A DNA stretch of 64,000 bases from assembly GCF_019656215.1 (NCBI RefSeq), contig NZ_BPLK01000002.1:186001-250000 (forward strand), read 5' to 3'. The notes under the pieces are model-generated. The model did not search any database. It saw only the letters and a program-made list of their open reading frames with translations, and had not been told where the DNA came from. Of the stretch, positions 47,122 to 51,427 are shown piece by piece. Made by a program: the position numbers and the translations under genes. The first letter of the stretch is position 1, and the number at the start of each line of letters is the position of its first letter. This DNA is from Apilactobacillus zhangqiuensis (GTDB lineage Bacteria; Bacillota; Bacilli; Lactobacillales; Lactobacillaceae).

Positions 47122-48489
47122 ATGAAATTTAAAGCACCAGTTACAAAGAACGAAGAATATGAAGTCGATATTGTCGACTTAACATACCAAGGCTTAGGAG
47201 TAGCCAAGATTGAAGATTATCCTTTGTTTATTGAAGACACTCTTCCAGGCGAAAAAGCTTTGATTAAGGTAATCAAAGTTAACCAAAACTTTGGTTTCGC
47301 GAAGTTAGAAAAGTTACTAACTAAATCACCTGATCGTGTTGAAAACATCGACAAAAATTACACTCGTACAGGAATTGCTCCATTACAACATCTAAAATAT
47401 GATGCACAATTGGAATTCAAACAACACCAAATTCAAGAACTTTTCGACAAGTCCAAGATGGATGTTGAAATATTGCCAACTATTGGGATGGATGACCCAA
47501 CTCATTACAGAAACAAGGCCCAAATTCCAGTTCGTTCAATTAACGGTAAACTACAAACTGGTTTCTTCCGTAAGCATTCACACGACCTAGTACCCATTGA
47601 AGATTTCTACATTCAAGATCCAGAAATCGATAAGGCCATCGTGGTAGTTAGAGACATTCTACGTAAGTATCACATTGAACCATACAATGAAACTCAACAT
47701 AATGGTGTGATTAGAAACATCATGGTTAGAAGAGGTCACTACACTAATCAAATGATGATTGGATTGATTACTCGTACCAAGAAGATTCCAATGGTTGATA
47801 TCATCGTCCGTGAAATTAAGGAAGCTTTACCTGAAGTAACAAGTATCATGCAAAACATCAACTTGTCAGATGGTAACGGTTTGTTAGGTAAGAGTACTGT
47901 TTGCCTTTATGGTAAGAAGTACATCGAAGACAAGTTACTTGGTTTGAAGTTCGCTATTTCATTGAACTCATTCTACCAAGTTAACCCAGAACAAACTGAA
48001 AAACTTTACTCTCTAGCAATTGAAAAGGCGCAACTAGATGGTACTCAAACAGTAATCGATGCTTACTGTGGTATCGGTACTATCTCATTAGCTGTTGCCG
48101 AACATGCTAAGAAAGTTTACGGTGTGGAAATCGTTAAGGAAGCCATCGAAGATGCTAAGATTAACGCGCAAAAGAACCACATTAACAACACTACTTTCGT
48201 AACCGGTAGTGCAGAAGACCAAATGGAAAAATGGCAAGCACAAGGATTGAAACCAGATGTTATCATGGTTGATCCTCCACGTAAGGGACTTGCATCATCA
48301 TTCATCGACAGTGCTGCTCAAGTAGCACCTAAGAAGATTGTTTATGTATCATGTAACCCATCAACATTAGTACGTGATGCTCGTCGTTTAGCTGAATACG
48401 GTTATGAAATTACTCAACCAGTTCAACCGGTTGACCAATTCCCACAAACTGTTCACGTTGAATCAGTGACTGTATTTGAAAAGAAATAG
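47122..48489 (+). CDS. rlmD: 23S rRNA (uracil-C5)-methyltransferase, RumA/RlmCD type
   Basis: This 455-residue SAM-dependent enzyme methylates uracil C5 in 23S rRNA. An N-terminal TRAM RNA-binding domain (about 8-65) precedes the Rossmann methyltransferase domain. The nucleophilic cysteine is C411 in SCNPSTLVRD and the general base is E447 in HVESV. DPPRKGL is also present. The four-cysteine iron-sulfur site of E. coli RumA is not evident. In Bacillus the orthologue RlmCD methylates two sites, so specificity here is open. AAAAGGGG precedes the ATG. Confidence 0.93.
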   Translation: MKFKAPVTKNEEYEVDIVDLTYQGLGVAKIEDYPLFIEDTLPGEKALIKVIKVNQNFGFAKLEKLLTKSPDRVENIDKNYTRTGIAPLQHLKYDAQLEFKQHQIQELFDKSKMDVEILPTIGMDDPTHYRNKAQIPVRSINGKLQTGFFRKHSHDLVPIEDFYIQDPEIDKAIVVVRDILRKYHIEPYNETQHNGVIRNIMVRRGHYTNQMMIGLITRTKKIPMVDIIVREIKEALPEVTSIMQNINLSDGNGLLGKSTVCLYGKKYIEDKLLGLKFAISLNSFYQVNPEQTEKLYSLAIEKAQLDGTQTVIDAYCGIGTISLAVAEHAKKVYGVEIVKEAIEDAKINAQKNHINNTTFVTGSAEDQMEKWQAQGLKPDVIMVDPPRKGLASSFIDSAAQVAPKKIVYVSCNPSTLVRDARRLAEYGYEITQPVQPVDQFPQTVHVESVTVFEKK

Positions 48490-48496
48490 ATAAGAG

Positions 48497-48528
48497 AAAA
48501 GACACCCTGCGAGAGGGTGTCTTTTTTT
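48497..48528. terminator. Bidirectional terminator after rlmD
   Basis: GACACCCT (48501-48508) pairs with AGGGTGTC (48514-48521) with A and T runs on each side. It also ends the convergent mazG-like gene. Confidence 0.92.
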
Positions 48529-48835
48529 ATTTGTCGAATTTCCAATTTCGACCTTTATTAATGTTTATTTTATCTTGTATAATATCATTAGGTTCAACTT
48601 GTAGTTTTTCGCACATGTAGTAACAATATATTAATACATCTGCTAATTCTGACTTCAAGTTTTCCTTATCCGTGGATGATAAAGAACTATCATCTTTTTT
48701 CCAAAGAAATATTTTTTCGACCTCAGAAGCTTCAATACCTAAAGCTCTAGATAATGATATAAGAGTATGATATTCATTCCAGCCTCTGTCGTTTCTAAAT
48801 TCAATTAATTCTTGAATTATATCTTTATATTCCAT
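48527..48835 (-). CDS. MazG-like nucleotide pyrophosphohydrolase
   Basis: A 102-residue, all-helical protein of the MazG/RS21-C6 type, which hydrolyses non-canonical or deoxy-nucleoside triphosphates to monophosphates. Metal-binding acidic motifs are visible: EASEVEKIFLW in the first helix pair and ELADVLIYCYYMCEKL in the second, then NKGRNW at the end. The frame extends to 48883, but AAAGGAGA at 48837-48844 places the start at 48835. It lies head to head with the GIY-YIG helicase gene, 31 bases between start codons. Codon use is AT-rich, like its neighbour and unlike the flanking housekeeping genes. Confidence 0.85.
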   Translation of the reverse strand: MEYKDIIQELIEFRNDRGWNEYHTLISLSRALGIEASEVEKIFLWKKDDSSLSSTDKENLKSELADVLIYCYYMCEKLQVEPNDIIQDKININKGRNWKFDK

Positions 48836-48865
48836 AAAAATCTCCTTTAAGGTAGGTACTTTATA
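48812..48865. promoter_or_regulatory. Overlapping divergent promoter region
   Basis: Candidate rightward promoter: TTGAAT (48812-48817), 17 bases, TAAAAA (48835-48840). Candidate leftward -10: TATAAA read on the minus strand at 48865-48860. Both ribosome binding sites (AAAGGAGA leftward, AAGGTAGG rightward) sit in the same 31-base gap, so the two polymerase footprints must overlap. The promoter assignments are weak. Confidence 0.4.
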
Positions 48866-48866
48866 A

Positions 48867-50648
48867 ATGTCAGATAGCAACATAGCTAAACCAATTATTA
48901 AAAAATATGATTACACCATTAATAGTGACATAAAACAAGAAATTTTAAAACAAAATAATACTAAAGAAGAACATGAACTAATAACCAGATTTCCAACAGT
49001 ATACATAGTTATAGATAAAATTCGTGGTAAAAAAAAGAAATTTGGTCAATTCAAAGCGTACGTTGGTGAAACCAACAATATTGTACGTAGAACAGAAGAG
49101 CATTTAAATAGCGAATCAGAAGATAGAACGGATTGGACAGAACTAAATAATTCTAAGGATGCTAAGATTATTGTTATTGCCCATAAAGAATTTAACAAGT
49201 CGTTAACTTTAGATATTGAAAATCAATTAATGAAATATCTTCTTAGTGATGACGCAATTGGTGAACTAAATAATCGTAGATCTAATGATCAAGATTTATA
49301 CTTTACAAGAGATCATTTTAGAGATATTTTTCAAAATATTTGGGAAGAATTATCTAAGAAAAATAAAGATATCTTCCCGAGTGTTGATGACATTACCAAT
49401 TCTGCAATTTTTAAAGCATCTCCCTTTCATAAGTTAACTGATGAACAATTAGATGCCAGAGATGAAATAATTGATAAAATCAAAGATATTAAAAAAGGAA
49501 ATGGCACGGATAATTTAATTATTATCAAGGGTTCTGCAGGAACAGGTAAGACGGTTCTATTAAGCTCTTTATTTGCTGAGCTCAATAAACCTGATAATCA
49601 AGAAGCATATATGCTTGTAAATCACAATCAACAGGTTAAAGTATATGAAAATATAGCTCAAAAAATAGGTATTAAAACAAGACTTGGTGATTCAATAGTT
49701 AATAAACCAACAAAGTTTTTAAATAAACACCAAGTTGGAGATGAAAATTCAAAAATAGATATTGCTTTAATAGACGAAGCACACTTACTGCTTACTGAAG
49801 GTTATATGGTTTATCAAGGTTCAGGTCATTTGAAAGATATAAGAAGCATATCAAATGTTGTCGTAGCTGTATTGGATCCAATGCAGGTATTAAAGGGCAA
49901 TGGATATGTTGAAAAATCGTATTATGATAAATTAATTAGTAAGTCAAGAGAGAATAATCAATTAATAGAGTTGTCTGAACAAAATAGAATGGATGCTTCT
50001 ATAGAAACCATTGATTGGATTGAAGATATTGTTACTAAAAATGAAATTAATAAGATTCCTAGAGATGATAAGTATGATTTAAGAGTCTTTAATGATGTTA
50101 ATAATATGTATAAAGAAATTAAAAAGCATAATGATAGTATTCAATCATTAACAAAGGGTTTATCAAGAATGGTTGCTACTTATGATTGGGAATTTAGATC
50201 AAGTAGATATAATAAAATTATTCAAAATGATGGTACTGTGGTCGATGATTTATGGCGAGTTTCAATTGGTGATAAATTTAATCTTCCTTGGAATTATCAA
50301 TTACCGGTTGAGAAGAAATATAAAGACTTATCATGGGCAGAGCAACCTCAAACAATTAATGAAGTTGGTTCTACATTTACAATTCAAGGCTTTGATTTGA
50401 ATTATTGTGGTGTTATTCTTGGTCCTTCAATCAAGTTTAGGAACGGAAAAGTAGTTTATGATGGAACAGAAAGCTTTGACAGACAAGTTACAGACAAAAG
50501 AACAATGAAAAACGGAGAACAAAAGGATATATCATCTGAGTTAATTCGCAATCAACTAAACGTGCTACTAAAACGTGGGGTACATGGACTTTTCATCTAT
50601 GCTGTTGATGACGAACTAAGAAAAGAATTAATCAGACAAAGCAAATAG
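48867..50648 (+). CDS. GIY-YIG nuclease - Schlafen-group-3 (DUF2075) helicase fusion
   Basis: A 593-residue protein with two parts. Residues 42-138 form a GIY-YIG nuclease-like domain: VYIV (45-48), AYVGET (64-69), R74/R75, H79, the probable catalytic E118 in DIENQL, and N135/N136. From about 195 onward is a superfamily 1 helicase-like domain of the DUF2075 family (PF09848, related to the helicase part of Schlafen proteins): Walker A GSAGTGKT at 222-229, Walker B LIDEAH with D303/E304, then an SEQNRMD motif and a GSTFTIQGFDLNYCGVILG motif near the end. AAGGTAGG precedes ATG 48867. The gene is rich in ATA, AAT and AAA codons, unlike its neighbours, suggesting transfer. With the divergent MazG-like gene it probably forms a defence cassette; function is inferred. 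Confidence 0.86.
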   Translation: MSDSNIAKPIIKKYDYTINSDIKQEILKQNNTKEEHELITRFPTVYIVIDKIRGKKKKFGQFKAYVGETNNIVRRTEEHLNSESEDRTDWTELNNSKDAKIIVIAHKEFNKSLTLDIENQLMKYLLSDDAIGELNNRRSNDQDLYFTRDHFRDIFQNIWEELSKKNKDIFPSVDDITNSAIFKASPFHKLTDEQLDARDEIIDKIKDIKKGNGTDNLIIIKGSAGTGKTVLLSSLFAELNKPDNQEAYMLVNHNQQVKVYENIAQKIGIKTRLGDSIVNKPTKFLNKHQVGDENSKIDIALIDEAHLLLTEGYMVYQGSGHLKDIRSISNVVVAVLDPMQVLKGNGYVEKSYYDKLISKSRENNQLIELSEQNRMDASIETIDWIEDIVTKNEINKIPRDDKYDLRVFNDVNNMYKEIKKHNDSIQSLTKGLSRMVATYDWEFRSSRYNKIIQNDGTVVDDLWRVSIGDKFNLPWNYQLPVEKKYKDLSWAEQPQTINEVGSTFTIQGFDLNYCGVILGPSIKFRNGKVVYDGTESFDRQVTDKRTMKNGEQKDISSELIRNQLNVLLKRGVHGLFIYAVDDELRKELIRQSK

Positions 50649-50654
50649 ACAAAA

Positions 50655-50681
50655 GAGACACCCCTCACAGGTGTCTTTTTT
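50655..50681 (+). terminator. Terminator after the GIY-YIG helicase gene
   Basis: AGACACC (50656-50662) pairs with GGTGTCT (50670-50676) with a T run. Its core resembles the terminator on the other side of the gene pair at 48497. Confidence 0.88.
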
Positions 50682-50755
50682 GCACTTCCCAAGATTTGGG
50701 TATATATTACTTTCTATTGAAAACACAAAATTAAACATAAAAGTAGGCGAAATAT

Positions 50756-51427
50756 ATGCGTATTAATATTATTCAACATACTCCAAACGAACGACCAGGT
50801 TCGATTTTGGATTGGGCACATGACAGGGGACATGACGTTTACATCTACCATCCATACCAATTTGGTATCCTACCAAAGGTAGATGAAACTGATATGTTAG
50901 TTATCATGGGTGGTCCAATGAGTGTTAACGATGATATTGATTGGATTGAGTTCGAACGGGACATTATCAGAGAACTTGCTGAAAAAGATGTTCCAATCTA
51001 TGGTGCCTGTTTTGGTGCGCAACAAATTGCCAAAACATTTGGTGCCAAGATTACCACCTCAACAGAAAAGGAAGTTGGTTGGGCACCAGTATATTTAAGA
51101 TCCGAACGCATCCCTGGCATTTATAATAAGCTTACTGCAATGCACTGGCATGGTGAAATGTTTGAAATTCCTAAGAATGGGGAATTATTATTCTCCAGTG
51201 ATTTGGTGGAAAACCAAGGATTCATTATTGGCGACAGAATTGTTGGTTTACAATTCCACTTTGAATTAGGTACTGACGAAGTCAGAGAAATCGTTACCAA
51301 CGACAACAAGTACGTTGCTGGATCAGCATTGAATCAAACTAATGAAGATATCTTAGCTAGACCAGTACCAAAAGAAAACAAACAAGTGATGTATGCAATT
51401 TTGGATTACATCACACAAGGCAAATAA
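50756..51427 (+). CDS. Class I glutamine amidotransferase-like protein
   Basis: A 223-residue stand-alone class I glutamine amidotransferase domain of the GMP-synthase-like type. The catalytic triad is C85 (YGACFGAQQIA), H168 and E170 (LQFHFELG). The GGPMSVND oxyanion region precedes it. There is no synthetase domain and no partner gene nearby, so the acceptor substrate is unknown; relatives include gamma-glutamyl-peptide hydrolases. Only a weak ribosome binding site (AGGCGA) precedes ATG 50756. It is a monocistronic unit between two terminators. Confidence 0.85.
   Translation: MRINIIQHTPNERPGSILDWAHDRGHDVYIYHPYQFGILPKVDETDMLVIMGGPMSVNDDIDWIEFERDIIRELAEKDVPIYGACFGAQQIAKTFGAKITTSTEKEVGWAPVYLRSERIPGIYNKLTAMHWHGEMFEIPKNGELLFSSDLVENQGFIIGDRIVGLQFHFELGTDEVREIVTNDNKYVAGSALNQTNEDILARPVPKENKQVMYAILDYITQGK

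Follow-up and report, generated by a model that had tools for sequence, protein, structure and literature searches.

A GIY-YIG/Schlafen-type helicase fusion and its MazG-like neighbor look like an undescribed antiviral module

A two-gene block of Apilactobacillus zhangqiuensis looks like an undescribed antiviral module. It lies in the window analyzed here, a stretch of 64,000 nucleotides (contig NZ_BPLK01000002.1, positions 186,001 to 250,000), and consists of a gene for a GIY-YIG nuclease fused to a PF09848 (Schlafen group 3) superfamily 1 (SF1) helicase and a gene for a small MazG-like nucleoside triphosphate (NTP) pyrophosphohydrolase. The source genome (G000) of this bee-associated lactic acid bacterium measures 1.44 Mb. 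The gene pair is accessory and mobile, not core-like, and it is spread across many Gram-positive bacteria. We consider it reasonably probable that the pair is a mobile two-gene defense module composed of a nuclease-helicase effector and a pyrophosphohydrolase of the deoxycytidine triphosphate (dCTP) family. This reading draws on computed domains and active-site residues, the linkage of the two genes, their accessory and mobile spread, their defense-rich neighbors, and the likeness of the MazG to dCTP pyrophosphatases. The pair maps to the window as follows.

48867 to 50648, plus strand: GIY-YIG nuclease/PF09848 (Schlafen group 3) SF1 helicase fusion, 593 amino acids (aa) (Pfam, alignment, and fold comparison)
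48996 to 49235, plus strand: GIY-YIG domain, aa 44-123, with Y46, Y65, G67, R75, H79, and E118, and N136 just beyond (Pfam and residues)
49515 to 50609, plus strand: PF09848 helicase domain, aa 217-581, with Walker A at 222-229 and DEAH at 303-306 (Pfam and fold comparison)
48527 to 48835, minus strand: MazG-like all-alpha NTP pyrophosphohydrolase, dCTPP1/RS21-C6-like, 102 aa, with E35, E38, E63, D66, W19, W45, and Y70
48836 to 48866, no strand: gap of 31 bp between both start codons

Both genes were found where the original prediction, made from the DNA letters alone, had placed them, between housekeeping-like flanks: an rlmD-like gene (47122-48489) lies on the left and a glutamine-amidotransferase-like gene (50756-51427) on the right, names that we assigned from sequence. 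The deviating codon use described for them was borne out for ATA, which accounts for 28% of the isoleucine codons in the fusion gene and 55% in mazG compared to 2% in nine flanking genes pooled. The GC content was 0.294 for the fusion and 0.278 for mazG compared to 0.388 for the nine flanking genes, and the lowest GC among the 64 bins of the window was that of the 49-50 kb bin.

The domain architecture predicted for the fusion was confirmed by Pfam and alignment. The GIY-YIG match (aa 44-123) is only just above the cutoff (23.9 bits versus 22.6), and the match to PF09848, named SLFN-g3_helicase (aa 217-581), reaches 274.5 bits with a cutoff of 24 and spans positions 3-354 of the 354-position profile. 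The Walker A motif GSAGTGKT at 222-229, the DEAH motif at 303-306, E118, and N135/N136 are in place. The Tyr, Arg, and Glu residues of GIY-YIG domains have catalytic roles. Among 136 aligned fusion rows (Lactobacillaceae rows below 520 aa and other rows below 480 aa were excluded), E118, K228, D303, and E304 are conserved in every row and Y65, G67, and R75 in 135, the exception being the second row of locus L178, which is probably misaligned. Structure comparison, mainly of residues 138-593, gave a UvrD/RecD2/Dda-like helicase fold. Pfam gave no Schlafen RNase domain match for the fusion, with GIY-YIG standing there instead. A fusion variant of about 646 aa, present in L116, L117 (3731-5671), and the related rows L118 and L146-L148, all six without an adjacent MazG, apparently carries an additional XRE-like helix-turn-helix at its N terminus, recognized by eye in the alignment row of L116, which, if true, would be a built-in regulator. 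Tandem pairs of GIY-YIG/PF09848 fusions occur in L121 (2258-5719) and L178 (3474-7072), the latter pair being followed by a MazG.

The second gene does encode a 102-residue MazG-like enzyme, as proposed, with a score of 45.9 bits against PF12643 (cutoff, 27). Residues E35, E38, E63, D66, W19, W45, and Y70 are invariant in 46 of 46 relatives and align to mouse dCTP pyrophosphatase; they include the acidic residues of the metal site and the two Trp residues typical of dCTP pyrophosphatases. The fold is all-alpha and resembles dCTP pyrophosphatases, and the nearest solved structures are those of a pyrophosphatase from an archaeon and of dCTP pyrophosphatases from mammals, the latter of which accept 5-methyl-dCTP too. 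By sequence and modeled fold, the protein is thus grouped with the dCTP pyrophosphatases, and it probably breaks down one type of DNA precursor. Orf135 of Escherichia coli is the Nudix protein NudG. E. coli Orf135 and mammalian RS21-C6/DCTPP1 are described as highly specific 5-methyl-dCTP hydrolases (PMC10742078). Family membership cannot give the substrate, because the same source lists other substrates, 8-oxo-dGTP and 2-oxo-dATP, for MutT and MazG-family enzymes (PMC10742078).

The conserved neighborhood anticipated by the original prediction was found both within and beyond the family Lactobacillaceae. A search of 397 Lactobacillaceae genomes listed at least 104 fusion matches, and we examined 96 loci including the window, one of which contributes two rows, giving 97 rows. 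The matches outside this set, several of which are broken or incomplete, lie in G285, G333, G095, G374, G335, G168, G157, and G283. No fewer than three weaker, incomplete matches (G022, G193, and G148) fall outside the listed set. The fusion has an adjacent MazG in 60 of the 97 rows and none in 37; the MazG lies upstream on the same strand in 31, downstream on the same strand in 20, and head to head in 9. In other families of Bacilli, where 40 loci were read from 41 fusion-type matches (G695 was left out), MazG adjoins the fusion in 33, of which 29 have it downstream in the same orientation, in most cases a few bases away or overlapping, 3 have it upstream, and 1, L189, is head to head with the genes 378 bp apart. 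The reverse search found 53 MazG matches in 51 of 251 Lactobacillaceae genomes, 37 of them within 500 bp of a fusion. The head-to-head layout described for the pair is therefore true in the window but not general, since all nine such Lactobacillaceae rows are from Apilactobacillus. In the window, the mazG start at 48835 agrees with relatives, and an alternative 118-aa open reading frame from 48883 is present too. Promoter matches around the 31-bp divergent gap were not above chance (16 found versus 13.9 expected), and a promoter explanation for the gap was dropped on that count.

The fusion-MazG linkage arose probably more than once, as judged from the trees, because eight downstream MazGs form a separate lineage in the MazG tree with a support of 100/100, although over few columns. 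On a tree of 96 fusions, built by a quick method and with some long branches, the arrangement labels need 15 changes versus a shuffled mean of 48, and the label of the MazG-less fusions needs 12 changes, 9 of them forced by well-supported branches. These solo fusions bear on a toxin-antitoxin or poison-antidote arrangement, in which a toxic fusion would be neutralized by the MazG. Tight linkage and a small partner would fit such an arrangement. However, 43 of 136 fusion rows have no adjacent MazG (a MazG elsewhere in the genome is not excluded for all) and all 43 keep Y65, G67, R75, E118, K228, D303, and E304, the solo label has changed repeatedly on the tree, and in L177 a MazG is kept beside a broken fusion. 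Because the 43 MazG-less fusions keep these core residues, the MazG is no obligatory antitoxin, and the immunity role once suggested for it does not hold as an obligatory one; we regard the toxin-antitoxin reading as very unlikely. Single solo rows vary at H79, N136, or Q372 or miss R570. Five related MazG-less fusions (L185, L186, L187, L188, and L190; family f8, genus g106) are followed by downstream genes that differ per genome and are mostly unnamed, resembling a variable defense site.

The pair is not a strictly vertical core gene set, in line with what had been expected of it. Among 16 Apilactobacillus genomes, 10 have the full fusion and 9 have MazG, which adjoins the fusion every time; G015 has the fusion without MazG, and six genomes have neither gene. 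The fusion relatives with 91% and 90% identity are from A. nanyangensis and A. kunkeei. The rlmD-amidotransferase site is cassette-free in G001, with a single terminator hairpin, whereas in the window hairpins flank both sides of the insert.

48497 to 48527, no strand: left terminator hairpin (GACACCC..GGGTGTC and a T run), 3' of the rlmD-like gene
50656 to 50682, no strand: right terminator hairpin with a similar stem (GACACC..GGTGTC and a T run), 3' of the fusion

In G005 and G014, the same site holds an Mrr-type gene instead of the pair (in G005, Mrr_cat 95.3 bits and Mrr_N 33.3 bits), and in L003 (A. nanyangensis) mazG is adjoined by a 1573-aa restriction-methylation enzyme (PADLOC REase_MTase_I, 2103 bits), apparently the same gene that is incomplete at the stretch end in L145 (G004). 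The Apilactobacillus rlmD-amidotransferase gap (window 48489-50756, L145, L153, L154, and L158) is thus a swap site that contains nothing, an Mrr-type gene, the pair, or the restriction-methylation enzyme and the pair. The similar terminator hairpins on either side of the insert could serve as recombination handles for exchange. G001 has the pair at another site, between a DUF262 protein (HEC-06, 288 bits) and a Cas9-like gene, and in G003 the pair adjoins a C5-methyltransferase and a Type II restriction enzyme. Lactobacillaceae plasmids bear the fusion too: in the order SauUSI-like gene, MazG, and fusion (L272), as fusion then MazG adjoining Type I restriction-modification genes (L273), and without MazG adjoining type III-A CRISPR genes (L271). 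In a phylum-wide sample at E ≤ 1e-60, 3 of 348 genomes matched, namely, the source genome, one already known member of the Bacilli, and one from outside the class. One scan of viral contigs gave no close fusion relatives, and the four phage records found are all distant relatives. In L239 (G157) and L240 (G221), a truncated mazG lies beside transposase genes, with a PF09848 fragment beyond them in L239; both genomes carry a second MazG.

The expected enrichment in defense islands was also observed. At 20 fusion loci, 131 neighbor proteins matched 69 PADLOC models at E ≤ 1e-20 compared to 5 models for 169 proteins from 20 control stretches on these contigs, where the fusion loci had been hand-picked for long contigs, some after their neighbors were known (L139, L140, and MazG-less ones), the matches stem from part of the 20 loci, and the number of defense genes is far below 69 because one protein can match several models. 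The control matches comprised two MADS models and single matches to SngC, BrxH, and DpdF, and the mad3 model matched 2 proteins in both sets. Defense neighbors identified by name include Cas9, DrmB, PDC-S06, MTase_II, HEC-06, and REase_II; of the 69 models, the listing covered the 25 commonest. MazG-less fusions adjoin SIR2-like proteins (L099 and L104) or Cas9 (L111 and L114), with Pfam run on L104 and L111, a CRISPR-looking repeat array recognized by eye (L112), or a C5-methyltransferase (L110), and several sit among housekeeping-like genes. A 1293-aa neighbor in L069 was considered as Cas9 and rejected, being DEDDh-like. In G184 (C23:55675-58929), the fusion has a C5-methyltransferase at a distance of 78 bp on one side and MazG on the other, a possible restriction-modification-like trio.

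These neighborhoods also bear on a plainer reading, in which the fusion is a helicase of routine DNA repair or recombination, next to a house-cleaning enzyme, and plays no part in defense. The UvrD/RecD2/Dda-like fold and the copies among housekeeping-like genes are consistent with it, as is a GIY-less PF09848 paralogue (37-43% identity), a separate gene present in 16 of 16 Apilactobacillus genomes. However, the patchy presence, the swapping with an Mrr-type gene, the plasmid carriage, and the enriched defense neighbors all argue against it, and we consider it improbable.

As a mobile defense module, the pair would act against phages or other foreign DNA, with the fusion as nuclease-helicase effector. 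The MazG would hydrolyze dCTP and/or 5-modified dCTP and so adjust nucleotide supply to suit the effector, whether it clears away modified precursors or lowers dCTP; anti-phage activity, a DNA substrate, the nucleotide specificity, and joint action of both proteins are what we infer from the computed features. Self-sparing pool cleaning and nucleotide depletion appear about equally likely as the role of the partner, each of them a possibility that we hold only tentatively. In the self-sparing version, the fusion would attack modified-cytosine DNA while the MazG destroys 5-modified dCTP, whether endogenous or recycled from cut phage DNA, sparing host DNA. SauUSI-like enzymes offer a lead in this direction. 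The fusion-distant MazGs in G164 and G157 immediately follow a Nudix gene and a PLD-helicase-DUF3427 gene, and the G164 protein was confirmed to have PLDc_2, helicase, and DUF3427, which is the SauUSI architecture (the fusion-distant MazG in G044 adjoins another PF09848 protein). SauUSI is described as cleaving 5-methylcytosine (m5C) and 5-hydroxymethylcytosine (hm5C) DNA with ATP (PMC3874153), and the 5-methyl-dCTP specificity described for Orf135 and RS21-C6/DCTPP1 (PMC10742078) speaks for this reading too. SauUSI-like matches numbered 88 in 74 of 251 genomes, 5 of them within 1 kb of a fusion, against a rough expectation of 0.23 within 5 kb; 25 genomes have both. Some of these composite loci have MazG between or beside the two, and a SauUSI-like stretch was present in the fetched flank of 9 of 135 fusion loci (two weak, L193 and L197) compared to 0 of 20 control loci. 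A Nudix gene lies within 1.5 kb of 19 of 30 SauUSI-like loci (30 returned of the 88 matches), and a figure legend shows MutT homologues adjoining SauUSI homologues (PMC7641849). Three of four SauUSI-side Nudix proteins favor the pyrimidine-NTP model NF007834 over MutT and one the reverse, none above the cutoff. Three-gene units of Nudix, SauUSI-like (PLD-helicase-DUF3427), and MazG genes occur in L226 (4566-8311) and L238 (301-3935), where two different pyrophosphohydrolases flank one nuclease-helicase.

Several results weigh against self-sparing. Of 80 fusion genomes, 18 have a C5-methyltransferase (PF00145), as do 24 of 80 genomes without a listed fusion (Fisher p = 0.37); both sets were hand-chosen and not matched by genus, the first from the at least 104 fusion genomes. 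A broad 5-methylcytosine target is weakened because no anti-association was found; of the 23 C5-methyltransferases in the fusion-bearing set, 8 are no more than 10 kb away from the fusion, one of them at 78 bp, and the source genome itself has one. The objection would not apply to a narrower target, such as hydroxymethylcytosine or a particular sequence context. The 25 Pfam matches listed for the fusion (E up to 1) included no known modification-reading domain, MutT is the better-scoring model for one of the four Nudix proteins, and MazG-family enzymes have the other reported substrates mentioned above. By comparison, C5-methyltransferases tended weakly to be absent where SauUSI-like genes are present (found in 9 of 53 genomes with SauUSI-like genes and in 27 of 81 without; p = 0.046), in one of two tests, uncorrected, with genome handles up to G250 approximating the SauUSI sample.

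In the depletion version, the MazG would lower dCTP during infection and thereby starve the phage or free the nuclease from nucleotide inhibition, as in Gabija. The likeness of the MazG to dCTP pyrophosphatase fits, although a sensor that switches it on during infection was not seen and MazG-like enzymes elsewhere are house-cleaning enzymes. For Gabija, hydrolysis of (d)ATP or (d)GTP by GajB is described as promoting GajA (PMC10952713).

If the module defends, a widespread, ready-to-clone two-gene Gram-positive system joins the defense catalogue, and a bacterial relative of the Schlafen helicases gains a nuclease and a nucleotide-pool partner. A broader and rather doubtful idea is an unnamed "self-cleaning" class of restriction, in which a nuclease-helicase acting on modified-pyrimidine DNA is accompanied by a pyrophosphohydrolase that removes 5-modified dCTP, either a DCTPP1-like MazG or, beside SauUSI, a NudG-like Nudix protein. 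Modified bases, endogenous or phage-salvaged, would thereby be kept out of the host chromosome, preventing self-attack. If true, two unrelated nuclease-helicases would each have acquired, independently, a partner from one of two unrelated enzyme families that share a reported activity on 5-methyl-dCTP, with partner swaps, and immunity to modified phage DNA would have to be coupled to deoxynucleoside triphosphate hygiene. This would explain the MutT/Nudix genes beside SauUSI and points to one function that bacterial immunity might have in common with the dCTPP1-type enzymes of mammals.

No named system with the composition of the pair came up, as had been supposed. In PADLOC-DB 2.0.0, neither protein has a full-length model match (best, fragments of 19.5 bits for the fusion and 17.3 bits for the MazG), and NCBIfam gave a full-length match for neither. 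No description of the pair was found among the papers listed by searches of the open-access literature, although absence there is not proof. Among the papers listed for DUF2075, the old name of PF09848, none is on defense by its title or the start of its abstract. PF09848 is listed among "Abi proteins" in a passage of an E. coli paper (PMC10121019). MazG is an uncharacterized predicted defense domain in DefensePredictor, section 8 of which names MazG but not a GIY-YIG/PF09848 partner (PMC13092281). CMoRE is described as a single-component GIY-YIG defense nuclease against 5-hydroxymethylcytosine (5hmC) and glucosylated 5-hydroxymethylcytosine (5ghmC) DNA that is antiviral in E. coli (PMC12923530). 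The bacterial Schlafens that PMC12839542 deals with act as RNases. Unlike human Schlafen group 3 proteins (SLFN11 and SLFN14), the fusion has GIY-YIG in place of the Schlafen RNase domain. Gabija has its nuclease GajA and its helicase GajB as separate proteins, with another nuclease type and no known pyrophosphohydrolase. It resembles the pair in combining a nuclease and a helicase and in coupling nucleotide hydrolysis to activity (PMC10952713). SauUSI, a Type IV restriction enzyme, differs from the fusion in having a PLD rather than a GIY-YIG nuclease, another helicase type, and DUF3427, which is absent from the fusion. Like the fusion, however, it joins an N-terminal nuclease to a helicase and often lies beside a small (d)NTP pyrophosphohydrolase, and MazG of the same profile accompanies some SauUSI-like genes.
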